35,949 nucleotides of DNA from Kofleriaceae bacterium (GTDB lineage: Bacteria; Myxococcota_A; Polyangia; Haliangiales; Haliangiaceae): positions 1 to 35,949 of the forward strand of contig JANTGM010000056.1 of NCBI GenBank assembly GCA_024762925.1. Direction: 5' to 3'. Each line of letters starts with the position of its first letter. Within the stretch, counting starts at the first letter, position 1. Positions 31,369 to 35,949 of the stretch are shown here, in pieces. The notes under the pieces were generated by a model that was given only the letters and a program-made list of their open reading frames with translations, did no database searches and was not told the origin of the DNA. The position numbers were made by a program, and so were the translations under genes.

Positions 31369-34300
31369 ATGTCCATTATTTCGAAGATTTTCGGCAGCAA
31401 GAACGACCGTGAGCTCAAGAAGCTCAGGCCACTAATCAGCCACATTGCCTCCTTTGGCGAGGCTATGGAGGCAAAGAGCGATGACGAACTAAAGGCGATG
31501 ACGCCAATGTTCAAAGAGAAGCTCGACAACGGTGCAAGCCTCGATGACATCTTGCCAGAAGCATTTGCGATGACTCGCGAAGCGGCTTGGCGCGTGATGC
31601 AAATGCGTCACTACGACGTGCAGATGATCGGTGGCATCTTCCTGCACCGAGGTGTGATTGCTGAGATGCGGACCGGCGAGGGTAAGACACTCACCGCAAC
31701 CAGTCCTGTGTACTTGAACGCTCTTGAGGGACGTGGCGTTCATGTTGTTACCGTCAATGATTACCTCGCCTCTCGCGATGCGGAGTGGATGGGGCAAATC
31801 TATCGGTGGATGGGGCTCTCTGTTGGCGTCATCGTTCACGGCATTTCCGACCAACAGCGCCAAGCGGCCTATCAAGCCGATGTCACCTACGGGCAGAACA
31901 GCGAATTTGGATTCGACTACCTACGCGACAACATGAAGATGTCGCCTGACAAGATGGTGCAGCGCGGGCTTCGCTACGCAGTTATCGATGAGGTTGACTC
32001 CATTCTTATCGATGAAGCGCGTACCCCGCTCATCATTTCAGGTCCTGCCGAGCAAAGCGCGCAATCCTACGAGAGGGTCGACAAGATCGTTCCACGCCTA
32101 AAGCGAGACATCGACTACACCGTTGATGAAAAGGCGCACTCCGCCATGCTCACCGACTCCGGTGTTGAAGCGGTTCAAGAGCTGCTCGAGCTCGACAACC
32201 TCTACGACCCCGCAAACATCCAGCTCAACCACCACGTCGGCCAAGCGCTTCGTGCACACACGCTCTACAAGCGCGACGTCAACTACCTCATCGACAATGG
32301 CAAAGTCGTCATCATCGATGATCACACGGGTCGCAAGATGGAAGGGCGCCGATGGTCCGATGGTCTGCACCAGGCGATTGAAGCCAAAGAAGGTGTGACG
32401 ATTGAAGAGGAGAACCAAACCCTCGCGACTGTCACCTATCAGAACTTCTTCCGCATGTACGACAAGCTCTCGGGCATGACGGGTACAGCCGACACTGAGG
32501 CTGCGGAATTCCATCACATCTACAAGCTTGACGTTCTTGTGATTCCGACCAACAAGCCGCTTGTTCGCGATGATCAGCGCGACCTCATCTACAAGAATGA
32601 GAAAGGCAAATTCAAGGCTGTCTTCAAGGACATCACCAAGTGCCACGAGAAAGGGCAGCCTGTTCTTGTCGGTACAACCTCAGTCGAGAAGTCCGAAGTG
32701 ATCGCAACATTGCTTCGCAAACAGAACATTCCCTTTGAGGTCCTCAACGCAAAGCAACACGAGCGAGAGGCTCTGGTGGTAGCCCAGGCTGGCCGCAAAG
32801 GCGCCATCACGATCTCTACCAACATGGCTGGTCGCGGTACCGACATCGTTCTCGGCGGCAATGCAGAAGTTCTCGCGGAGGATGCTCTCAAGGATGAGGG
32901 AGAAGAGGGCAACGAGGAACGCCTCGCGGAACTGCTTGAGAAGTTTGAGACGCAGTGCGATGCCGAGCGAGAAGAAGTTCTGGAAGCCGGCGGCCTGCGC
33001 GTCATTGGCACCGAGCGGCATGAGTCTCGTCGTATCGACAACCAGCTTCGTGGTCGCGCCGGTCGCCAAGGCGATGTGGGTGCTTCGCGCTTCTACCTGA
33101 GCCTTGAGGACGACCTACTGCGGATCTTCATGGGTGACAAGGTGGCTGCGATGATGGAGCGACTCGGCTTCGAAGAGGACATCCCCATCGAGAGCGGCAT
33201 GGTTACCAAGTCGATTGAGAACGCTCAGAAGAAAGTCGAAGGACACAACTTCGACTCTCGCAAGAACGTGCTTGAGTACGATGATGTGATGAACCAGCAG
33301 CGTAAGACCATCTATGGTCTTCGCAATCAGGTGCTTCGCGGGCAGTACATTCCGAACACCACCGACGATGATGGCAATCCTCTTCCCGAGGAAGAAATCG
33401 AAGAGCCGCCCACCGAGAGTGCCGACTGGACCATCGAGAGTCTTTCCAAAGACTTGAAAGACGAAATCTCAAAGATGGTGGACAATGCTCTCGCCAAGAA
33501 GGCAGAGAACGAGGAGATTGCTAAGAACAATCCCTTGGCCGAGCTGGTACCCGTTTGGCACTCCATGCGGTCCGAAATTTGGAGACAGACGGGCGCCTGG
33601 CTCGAAGACCTTGAACGTCAGTACAAGCGACTCGACAGCGGCAAGCTCGATGAGGACGAGTTTCTCGACTGGGTCATCGACCTGGTCGCTCGATCCCTTA
33701 TCCAGCAACGCGAGCGTCTGTATGATCTAAGCGACACACTGATTGCTACCGTTATCGAAGAGCACTGCCCCCCAGATTCCCACATCGATGATTGGGACTT
33801 TGACGCCATCGACGAGGCGATGTCAGCGCAGTTCAATAGCAAGATCGAGGTCGCCCGCAAGAACGTTGATCAGCAGGTCATCGCGGAGAGCACTTGGGAG
33901 CAGGTCGAGGCTATCCTCGAAAAGCGTCTCAAGGAGCTTGGGCGTCCATGGCTCATGTACTTTGCCCGCCACTTCCATCTGGAAGAGACGGACAATCAGT
34001 GGATTGAGCACCTCAAGAACATGGACCACCTTCGCGAGGGAATTGGTCTTCGAGGATATGGCCAGAAAGATCCAAAGAAGGAGTACAAGCGAGAAGGCTT
34101 TGAACTCTTCTCCCTAATGATGAAGAACATCCAACACAACACGGGTGAGAACGTGTTCCGGGTGCAGATTCGTCAGCAAGAAGAAGTCATTCCAAGTCTT
34201 CAGCAGAATGAAGCCCGCGCGGTACACGAGAATCACGCAGGTGACGACGACTACAACGAGGAAGACGAGCAAGCAGAAGCGCAACAGGCGGCTCCTGCAA

Positions 34301-34413
34301 AGCAAGTCCGTCGTGAGCGGCCAAAGATCGGCAGAAATGACCCTTGTCACTGTGGCAGTGGCAAGAAGTACAAGAAGTGCCACGGCCGTGAGGGCAGCAC
34401 AGCCACCCTCTAA
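31369..34413 (+). CDS. secA: Preprotein translocase ATPase SecA
   Basis: 1014 aa motor ATPase that drives secretory proteins through SecYEG. Walker A is TGEGKT (102-107), motif II is DEVD (from Asp207) followed by [16 protein letters not shown], the preprotein cross-linking region lies beyond it, and [12 protein letters not shown] and RGRAGRQGD mark the second nucleotide-binding fold. The C-terminus has an acidic Glu/Asp/Gln-rich linker and a complete zinc-binding SEC-C motif (Cys993, Cys995, Cys1004, His1005), the SecB/ribosome contact site. Residues ~505-530 form an acidic insertion. The length is somewhat above E. coli SecA (901 aa). It is preceded by a terminator and followed by the 15-bp repeat tract. 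Confidence 0.97.
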
Positions 34414-34442: not shown

Positions 34443-34590
34443 CCGTGCGCCAGGCCAGTACGCTCCAGGCTCGTGCGCTCGAGCCCCGTGCGCGACAGGC
34501 CCATGCGCGCCAGGCTCGTACGCGCCAGGCCCATGCGCGCCAGGCCAGTACGCGCCAGGCTCGTGCGCACCAGGCCAGTCCGCTGACGCT
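34443..34590. repeat. 15-bp minisatellite (about nine and a half units)
   Basis: Tandem units in exact 15-base register run from 34456 to 34590, with a partial 13-base unit before them. The consensus is five variable bases followed by the near-constant CGCGCCAGGC. The variable word reads in order CAGTA, TCGTG, CCGTG, CCATG, TCGTA, CCATG, CAGTA, TCGTG, CAGTC. Because 15 is a multiple of three, all frames translate as five-residue repeats and stay open, which creates spurious ORFs. It fills most of the 290-bp gap between secA and the fliL-like gene; the rest of the gap shows nothing else. Confidence 0.95.
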
Positions 34591-34703
34591 CGATCGTCAG
34601 AACCACCGACGCCTTCTGCGGTCCATTCGGCTAACTCGTTGATCATCCGTTCGAATCGACTTGGCCCCGCCCTTGCTCTATGGAGAGGCACAGAGGAGCG
34701 GAT

Positions 34704-35207
34704 ATGGCTGAAGAAGAAATTGATGAAGATTTGGGAGCGTCGGAGGGACAGAAGTCCTCCAAGATTGTCTCCCTTCTCCTGTTTATAAACATTCTGGTAA
34801 GTGGTGCTGCCCTGTTCAAGATAATGGGACTTCCGTCTGAGCCTGTGATTGTAAATACCATTTCCGCTGGCGATGCCGAGGATGAAGGTGACCCCGAACT
34901 CCCTGGTCCTGTGCACGCGTTTGACGCGTTCCTTGTGAACCTCAATGAAGCTGGTGGCGGTCGCTTTCTTCGCGTCACAGTTGAACTCGAAGTAAAAAAC
35001 GAAGATGCCCTTGCAGAACTGCAGGCTAACGAACGAAAAGTCAAAGACGAGCTGCTGCGCTACCTCAGCAACTTGCGCGTGGAGGAGACGCTCGGTGAAA
35101 CCAATCGCCTTCGCATTCGCGACGGCATCATTTCCCGCCTCAACATCCTCTTGGATGATGAAGACCTTGTCAAAGGCGTCTACTTTCCCGACTTCGTGGT
35201 GCAGTAG
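34704..35207 (+). CDS. FliL-like single-pass membrane protein
   Basis: 167 aa from ATG 34704, chosen for the GAGGAG (34693-34698) five bases upstream. A short acidic cytoplasmic tail leads to one membrane helix (about 20-40), then a periplasmic domain. The domain reads as FliL: PGPVHAFDAFLVNLNE, RFLRVTVELEVKNE, a long helix with LRDGI-type residues, and the typical ending VYFPDFVVQ. FliL binds the flagellar stator and basal body, but no other flagellar gene is in the window, so a stomatin-like or gliding-related use is possible. It lies downstream of secA and upstream of the structured repeat array. Confidence 0.82.
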   Translation: MAEEEIDEDLGASEGQKSSKIVSLLLFINILVSGAALFKIMGLPSEPVIVNTISAGDAEDEGDPELPGPVHAFDAFLVNLNEAGGGRFLRVTVELEVKNEDALAELQANERKVKDELLRYLSNLRVEETLGETNRLRIRDGIISRLNILLDDEDLVKGVYFPDFVVQ

Positions 35208-35243
35208 TGGCGACCGCACCAACACAAACTTTCCCACCCAACC

Positions 35244-35500
35244 ACTGCTTCACTCCGATTAGCCATCGGAGCTCTGCACCCTGGGGGCAGGCGTCTCCTC
35301 TGCATTTGGCGCCTGTCCTCACTTTTCACTGCTTCACTCCGATTCGCCATCGGAGCTCTGCACCCTGGGTACAGGCGTCTTCCTCTGCATTGGACGCCTG
35401 TACCTCTTTTCTACTGCTTCACTCCGATTAGCCATCGGAGCTCTGCACCCTGGGAACAGACGTCCTCCTCTGCATTTGGACGTCTGTTCCTTCTTTTCGT
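35244..35500. repeat. Three tandem ~85-bp structured units with covarying hairpins
   Basis: Copies begin at 35244, 35328 and 35413 with ACTGCTTCACTCCGATT. Each has hairpin A, CTCCGAT/ATCGGAG with a 5-base loop (35253-35271, 35337-35355, 35422-35440), then a linker with CTCTGCACCCTGG. Hairpin B is an 11-13 bp stem (35285-35295 with 35308-35318; 35369-35379 with 35393-35403; 35454-35464 with 35479-35489) whose loop repeats CTCTGCA. Each stem is followed within 2-4 bases by TTTTC. Stem position 2 is G-C, T-A and A-T in copies 1-3, and position 7 is G-C, G-C and A-T, so pairing is preserved while sequence changes. This indicates a functional structure at RNA or single-strand level: an ncRNA, a serial terminator or an mRNA 3' end element. 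No known family is recognised. Confidence 0.85.
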
Positions 35501-35582
35501 TTCGGGCCGACAAACTGGAGTTGATCGGTTTCCAAAGACAGTTGTTGATTCCGCTGCCATCTTGAAATCGTCCTTGCCGTTG

Positions 35583-35748
35583 CGAGTTCATACTCGATTG
35601 GCGAGTAGCTGCCAAGCGTACGAGCATTCTGGAACTGGATGTAGCGCTGGGTGGCACTGCGAACGCTGGCTTCCGTCGACCAAGCGCGACGATAGATGAG
35701 CTCCTTGTTGATTGTCGCAAAGAAGCTCTCGACACACGAATTGATGCT
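35583..35748 (-). mobile_element. IS3-family transposase (OrfB) C-terminal remnant
   Basis: About 55 codons match the C-terminal end of IS3-family DDE transposases: NSCVESFFATINKEL with the catalytic Glu, then a helix rich in aromatic residues and NARTLGSYSPIEYE in place of the usual YN.RR.H..L...SP.EYE. The RRH stretch is shortened. The N-terminal two thirds, including the two catalytic Asp residues, are missing: upstream codons are unrelated to IS3 and abut the IS110 gene. The frame stays open downstream to 35428 into the repeat array, which is not part of the transposase. It is a decayed fragment. Confidence 0.8.
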
Positions 35749-35756
35749 CCTATATG

Positions 35757-35949
35757 TCAACAGGCATGTTCGACTTGAGAACTCTCCGTGGCTAAGAACT
35801 TCGAGGAAAGCACCTTGAATACCTCTCGGGCGATATAGCGCTTGAGGCAACACAGGATTTCCATCCGAGAAAGACCGTTTGCAGTTCGCTTTGCGACGTA
35901 GTCTTTCGTGCGTGGGTCACAACGCATACGAACAAATGCAATGACCCAA
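35757..35949 (-). CDS. IS110-family transposase, C-terminal part (runs off the window)
   Basis: The last 64 codons of a gene whose 5' part lies beyond the window. The translation includes AFVRMRCDPRTKDYVAKRT and MEILCCLKRYIAREVF, the diagnostic C-terminal (transposase_20 side) pattern of IS110-family DEDD recombinases, then a TGA at 35757-35759. IS110 elements have no terminal inverted repeats and carry a bridge RNA in a non-coding end. For an IS110-subgroup element that RNA would lie upstream, outside the window. The stop is only about 9 bp from the IS3 remnant. Confidence 0.8.
   Translation of the reverse strand, partial: WVIAFVRMRCDPRTKDYVAKRTANGLSRMEILCCLKRYIAREVFKVLSSKFLATESSQVEHAC

Follow-up and report, generated by a model that had tools for sequence, protein, structure and literature searches.

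A predicted two-hairpin RNA repeated in tandem behind a fliL-like gene and conserved in two diverged genomes of one Kofleriaceae genus

Gene context of the array

The window, by which we mean the whole stretch of 35,949 nucleotides that was analysed, is contig 56 of the 6.8-Mb draft genome of a marine relative of the myxobacteria. At its right end, secA is followed by a FliL-family gene, then by a tandem array and finally by a fragment of an IS3-type transposase, and the features of this region are as follows.

31369-34413: secA (SecA by NCBIfam)
34447-34576: minisatellite of 15/45 bp, about 8.7 copies of GCGCCAGGCCCGTGC, between secA and fliL
34661-34680, plus strand: sigma-54-type promoter sequence TTGGCCCCGCCCTTGCT, GG/GC spacing canonical, predicted transcription start at about 34688
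34704-35207, plus strand: fliL-like gene, host gene of the array, with its start aligned to that of the relative described below
35244-35497: array of three units of 84-85 nt each
35509-35949, minus strand: C-terminus of an IS3-type transposase, running off the contig end

The gene upstream of the units, called fliL-like in the preliminary description, does match the Pfam family FliL (PF03748, E = 1.7e-18), and its stop codon lies 36-39 nt before the array. On its minus strand the minisatellite reads as repeated pentapeptides of the (A/E)RTGL type, which are without Pfam match. Copies of the insertion sequence on contigs 236, 129 and 86 share sequence with the window only from about 35509-35516 onwards and have different flanks, so that the shared sequence lies wholly past the array and the units are not part of the IS element. 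Repeated IS copies sharing an end would probably explain why the contig breaks here.

Architecture of the units

Tandem Repeats Finder reports 3.0 copies of an 85-bp unit at 35243-35498, and folding agrees with repeat detection on the arrangement first described, that is, three tandem units with two hairpins each. The coordinates of the units and their scores with the covariance model R1 are given below.

Unit 1, 35244-35326, plus strand: 5' flank CUGCUUCA; hairpin A 35253-35271; linker; hairpin B 35282-35321 (14 bp, loop CCUCUGCA); UUUU 35323-35326; 105 bits
Unit 2, 35329-35411, plus strand: hairpin A 35337-35355; hairpin B 35367-35405; UUUU 35407-35410; 100.7 bits
Unit 3, 35414-35497, plus strand: hairpin A 35422-35440; hairpin B 35452-35491; UUUU 35494-35497; 101.7 bits

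From 5' to 3', each unit consists of the flank CUGCUUCA, hairpin A, the linker CUCUGCACCC, hairpin B, one or two bases and UUUU, the last being the short T-run that had been noticed at the end of every copy. Hairpin A has 7 bp (CUCCGAU UAGCC AUCGGAG); its stem is indeed the same in all three copies, and the loop of copy 2 differs by one base. Hairpin B has 14 pairs and a loop of 11-12 nt that contains CCUCUGCA, and CTCTGCA does occur both in the linker and in this loop. The folding energy of the array is -135.4 kcal/mol against a mean of -98.5 for shuffled sequences (z = -7.4), a value that 0 of 100 shuffles equal. Within this genome variation is concentrated in stem B, which varies at 8 of 26 columns compared with 3 of 54 for flank, hairpin A, linker and loop taken together (p = 0.004).

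Several additional structures were considered and set aside. An antiterminator fold pairing CUGC of the linker with GCAG of stem B can form in the first unit and in the second unit of the relative, is poor in the second and third units and is lost in the relative's first unit; a UGCA-UGCA pseudoknot between linker and loop has just four pairs and is lost in the same unit; an outer UGC/GCA helix around hairpin A is not kept there either and is shortened in the relative's second unit. The array is not a protein-coding repeat, the unit lengths of 84 and 85 being indivisible by three, and a long minus-strand frame that crosses it has its family match confined to the IS part.

Conservation in a same-genus relative

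Two homologous units lie behind secA-fliL, at the same locus, in the Kofleriaceae MAG NORP324 (JAESTW010000622.1; hereafter G001), a member of the same genus. They are 68 nt apart and start about 20 nt from the fliL stop codon; the spacer between them could not be aligned to those array units that were compared with it, and their downstream neighbour is a penicillin-amidase-type gene, with no insertion sequence beside the units. This neighbour (L004 1-1037, minus strand) is itself split into separate frames with a stop after 93 aa, and is either a pseudogene or an assembly error. A second genome of the genus, G002, was excluded because the secA-fliL region is absent from its assembly.

The two genomes are 61% identical in FliL and 81% in SecA, and fourfold-degenerate sites agree at only 5 of 30 positions in the former and 85 of 231 in the latter; since so few of them match, neutral sequence can be regarded as saturated between these genomes. 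Against this background the 5' flank differs between the species at 0-2 of 8-9 positions and hairpin A at 1-4 of 19, and each of the five B loops (three units here, two in G001) contains an unchanged CCUCU. Stem B is the variable part between the genomes as well, and the first unit of G001 has diverged in its linker and in part of loop B. The nearest pairs in stem B are the third unit with the relative's second (3 of 26 positions different) and the first unit with the relative's first (5 of 26), few sites that hint that the first and last units may be old and correspond by position between the genomes. On this comparison we regard the array as a real and previously undescribed structured RNA, as predicted from the alignment, that is conserved in two diverged genomes of one genus.

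Covariation and strand

The preliminary description had pointed to paired substitutions in stem B and had read them as selection on folding. The substitutions are as described: one pair is G-C, T-A and A-T in the three copies, another is G-C, G-C and A-T, and the remaining differences are G-U compatible. Over the five units of the two genomes, standard pairs occupy 98 of 100 pair cells as compared with 93.1 +/- 1.4% in shuffles, and stem B is paired in all 65 of its cells, so that the stems of the relative have not drifted without compensation. Double-sided changes are seen at five pairs, four in hairpin B and one in hairpin A, a number reached by 9 of 500 shuffles; the covariation score is 0.345 versus 0.212, with 0 of 500 shuffles as high, and structures shifted by one to three columns show 38-47% pairing only. 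The stems have thus been kept, with compensation, across two diverged genomes, which upholds the idea of selection on folding. A formal covariation test would need more than five sequences from two genomes, and template-switch repair within a strong palindrome can also yield compensation from copy to copy and some of the double changes; the covariation taken alone is accordingly moderate evidence for a folding constraint, and the firmer evidence is that hairpin A has kept its sequence between the two genomes.

The pairing also carries a strand signal. Nine cells, all in stem B, are G-U pairs, which form on the plus strand only; 98 of 100 cells pair on the plus strand as against 91 of 100 on the minus strand. 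Such a bias is more in keeping with an RNA read in the same direction as fliL than with a palindrome at the DNA level.

Distribution and database searches

In a covariance-model search of related genomes, of the kind that the preliminary description had called for, strong scores with model R1 were given by these five units only, across the relatives and 318 genomes of the class. Allowing at most three mismatches, the hairpin A pattern was found within the order in the same two genomes only, plus one weak match, and when the named genome collection was scanned for the exact pattern, the G001 contig alone was returned. Plasmids, phages and viral contigs gave no matches, a phylum sample of 379 genomes gave no convincing two-hairpin match to R1, and a search for the fliL protein among named genomes returned nothing. 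Elsewhere in the family and class, other genera have no such units behind fliL, and the corresponding stretch is mostly further coding sequence. Weak model matches in G016, G170, G111, G249, G427 and others are without the conserved hairpin A flank or loop B and were put down to chance. No tandem repeat like the minisatellite between secA and fliL was found in the G001 contig.

No known class had been recognised at the outset, and the Rfam 15 covariance models gave 0 matches over the whole window. Membership was taken to require a score at or above the gathering score, a rule that also covers any LhrC or alpha-r14 models held in that database, and no family reached it; under a permissive search the matches to the array stayed at chance level, the best of them scoring 16.2 bits where the cut-off was 40, and the G001 units had no match. 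From these searches, and from a comparison with named small-RNA systems made largely by their described features, the array is a putative new RNA family of narrow distribution and of a known kind.

Transcription and termination signals

The motif TTGGCN7TTGCW has a single match in the window, and 25 of 100 shuffled sequences also have one. The weight of the sigma-54-type site thus rests on its conservation, since a match by itself can readily occur by chance: TTGGCCCCGCCCTTGCTCTA (34661-34680) is identical to G001 at 18 of 20 positions and is the sole well-aligned intergenic stretch before fliL. The genome encodes a sigma-54 gene. Within the units no sigma-70-like or sigma-54-like site was found, these being the two types scanned, and the simplest reading would be one transcript that comprises fliL and the array.

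Each unit has the make-up of an intrinsic terminator, a GC-rich hairpin followed directly by a U-run. Hairpins of this type 1-2 nt before TTTT are rare here: those with a stem of at least 11 bp number 8 in a sampled 400 kb as compared with 1 in the control, and the array has three within 250 nt. Hairpin B is therefore probably a terminator. Its loop is too long for a simple terminator scan, and its short U-run suggests that termination would be leaky. A gene for Hfq was not found in the genomes examined.

Discussion

Our preferred reading, held tentatively and ahead of the others, is that the array is a set of small RNAs in the 3' UTR of fliL and co-transcribed with it. The fliL transcript would start at the sigma-54-type promoter and carry the array as a structured 3' UTR, in which each unit would be a two-hairpin small RNA of about 80 nt. 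Hairpin A would serve as a conserved recognition hairpin, the linker would be single-stranded, and hairpin B would be terminator-like while its loop exposes the constant CCUCU. With only four U per tract the terminators may leak, so that fliL mRNAs with one, two or three units would arise, and cleavage between the units could release individual small RNAs. We infer that these would act in trans through hairpin A and through the CU-rich loop, which would base-pair with AGAGG sites in mRNAs; AGAGG resembles a Shine-Dalgarno core and is the complement of CCUCU. A contact function of this sort is suggested because a terminator needs no conserved hairpin A, flank or loop. The loop can pair over 8 nt with the Shine-Dalgarno region of fliL itself (CUCCUCUG to CAGAGGAG), which places this match in roughly the top 5-10% of 314 start regions; fliL was nevertheless rejected as the target of its own 3' UTR, as 14-30 of the 314 regions match equally and the match is absent in G001, and no target is supported among these 314 start regions. 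A more specific version, which we consider rather doubtful, would have tandem small RNAs of a new, genus-level family in the tail of a sigma-54-controlled fliL, working without detectable Hfq, with leaky serial terminators setting the number of units and with hairpin A bound by some chaperone or other partner.

The array resembles the arrangement of several characterised systems and appears to belong to none of these families, since each comparison fails in at least one defining feature. In Alphaproteobacteria, the CcsR1-4 or cuckoo RNAs are tandem homologous small RNAs downstream of a small protein gene, and in ccaF1-CcsR1-4 they are co-transcribed with and cut from the upstream mRNA (PMC10253847); the alpha-r14 RNAs combine hypervariable stems with constant, CU-rich anti-Shine-Dalgarno loops, a pattern that the array recalls (PMC7143759). 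The array lies in another phylum, its upstream gene encodes FliL (PF03748) and not the DUF1127 protein behind whose gene CcsR-type RNAs are found, and it differs further by its CCUCU loop core, its sequence-conserved hairpin A, the UUUU of each unit and the lack of an Rfam match. Anti-Shine-Dalgarno motifs in all loops, together with hypervariable stems, define alpha-r14, whereas here the pattern holds for hairpin B (CCUCU in 5 of 5 loops, variable stem) and the UAGCC loop of hairpin A has no such motif and a conserved stem. LhrC1-5 of Listeria are also multicopy RNAs with two stem-loops of which the second is the terminator, and the same short CU motif recurs in their loops and linker and can pair with Shine-Dalgarno sites (PMC4132741). 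LhrC copies, however, have their own promoters, of which none was seen in the array units; the LhrC motif is UCCC, that of the array is CUCUGCA and is missing from the loop of hairpin A, and the sequences are unrelated. Pxr is a sigma-54-driven and sometimes tandem myxobacterial small RNA that works without Hfq, comes from the same broad bacterial group, varies in its last stem-loop while the first ones are conserved, and has tandem paralogues in Cystobacter (PMC5568312, PMC5684412). It is located between nla19 and an NADH dehydrogenase gene, and each of the Cystobacter paralogues is preceded by a promoter of its own, whereas the present locus is secA-fliL-array, and it is by locus, not by sequence, that the two are set apart. 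The array adds a conserved structured RNA without database entry to a phylum with few characterised small RNAs. Should the units be produced as RNAs, they would link riboregulation to a FliL-type protein and would provide a compact natural system for telling the effects of copy number, termination and small-RNA output apart; should they be terminators and nothing more, the constraint on the sequence of hairpin A would still call for a partner.

Among the explanations that compete with a small-RNA array, plain serial terminators come next and are possible, though we rate them lower. Here the units would end the fliL transcript and insulate what lies downstream, three copies would offset weak U-tracts, hairpin A would aid folding or protect the 3' end, and no trans-acting product would be made. 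The position just past the fliL stop codon and the hairpin B with UUUU in every unit fit this, and clusters of 3'-end hairpins or tandem intrinsic terminators, GC-rich and followed by U residues within some 300 nt of a stop codon, are reported to be common in bacteria and to act together (PMC8355165). The array differs from these in that its units are near-identical and each contains a sequence-conserved additional hairpin, and it is the conservation of hairpin A, the 5' flank and loop B at saturated synonymous divergence that terminators leave unexplained, as they do the two full units that G001 keeps 68 nt apart in an otherwise unrelated spacer. Serial terminators and a tandem small-RNA array are not mutually exclusive. 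It is unlikely that the array acts chiefly by binding protein, hairpin A being the site of an RNA-binding protein that the copies titrate or recruit to fliL mRNA, as a sponge or localisation signal, with hairpin B as spacer or terminator. The nearly invariant stem and loop of hairpin A and its multiplication in tandem are what such a site would look like, yet no known binding motif was recognised (the GGA of CsrA sites is in the stem, not in the loop), and the units occupy a single genomic locus in two or three copies. Typical sponges have more copies than that.

Least probable of all, and in our judgement very unlikely, are mobile or DNA-level palindromes, whether REP/RAYT-like, IS-associated or recombination sites, in which compensation would come from template-switch repair. 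An IS3-type fragment does lie 12-19 nt beyond the array, which had led to the suggestion of a mobile structured element; two neighbouring stem positions do change together on both arms, and hairpin B alone is loosely like the dispersed GGGGACAGACACC palindrome of genome G370. This suggestion does not survive the comparison with G001, whose units sit at the same locus beside a different, non-IS neighbour, nor the finding that other IS copies in this genome are without the array. Hairpins A and B occur together at one locus only, in three copies in this genome instead of the many dispersed copies of REP/RAYT elements, and the retained G-U pairs give the plus-strand bias noted above. In the G370 palindromes that were inspected the stem arms are the same and no hairpin A can be recognised. 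These matches concern hairpin B alone and have one stem sequence in common, and they were rejected as relatives.

These palindromes were the best other matches among the 379 genomes of the phylum sample. The sequence AAAATGGGGACAGACACC...GGTGTCTGTCCCCATTTT recurs in G370 at several loci (L088 1520-1570, L093 and L094), in L088 directly after a glutamine-synthetase-like gene, and it looks like a REP-type bidirectional terminator repeat.
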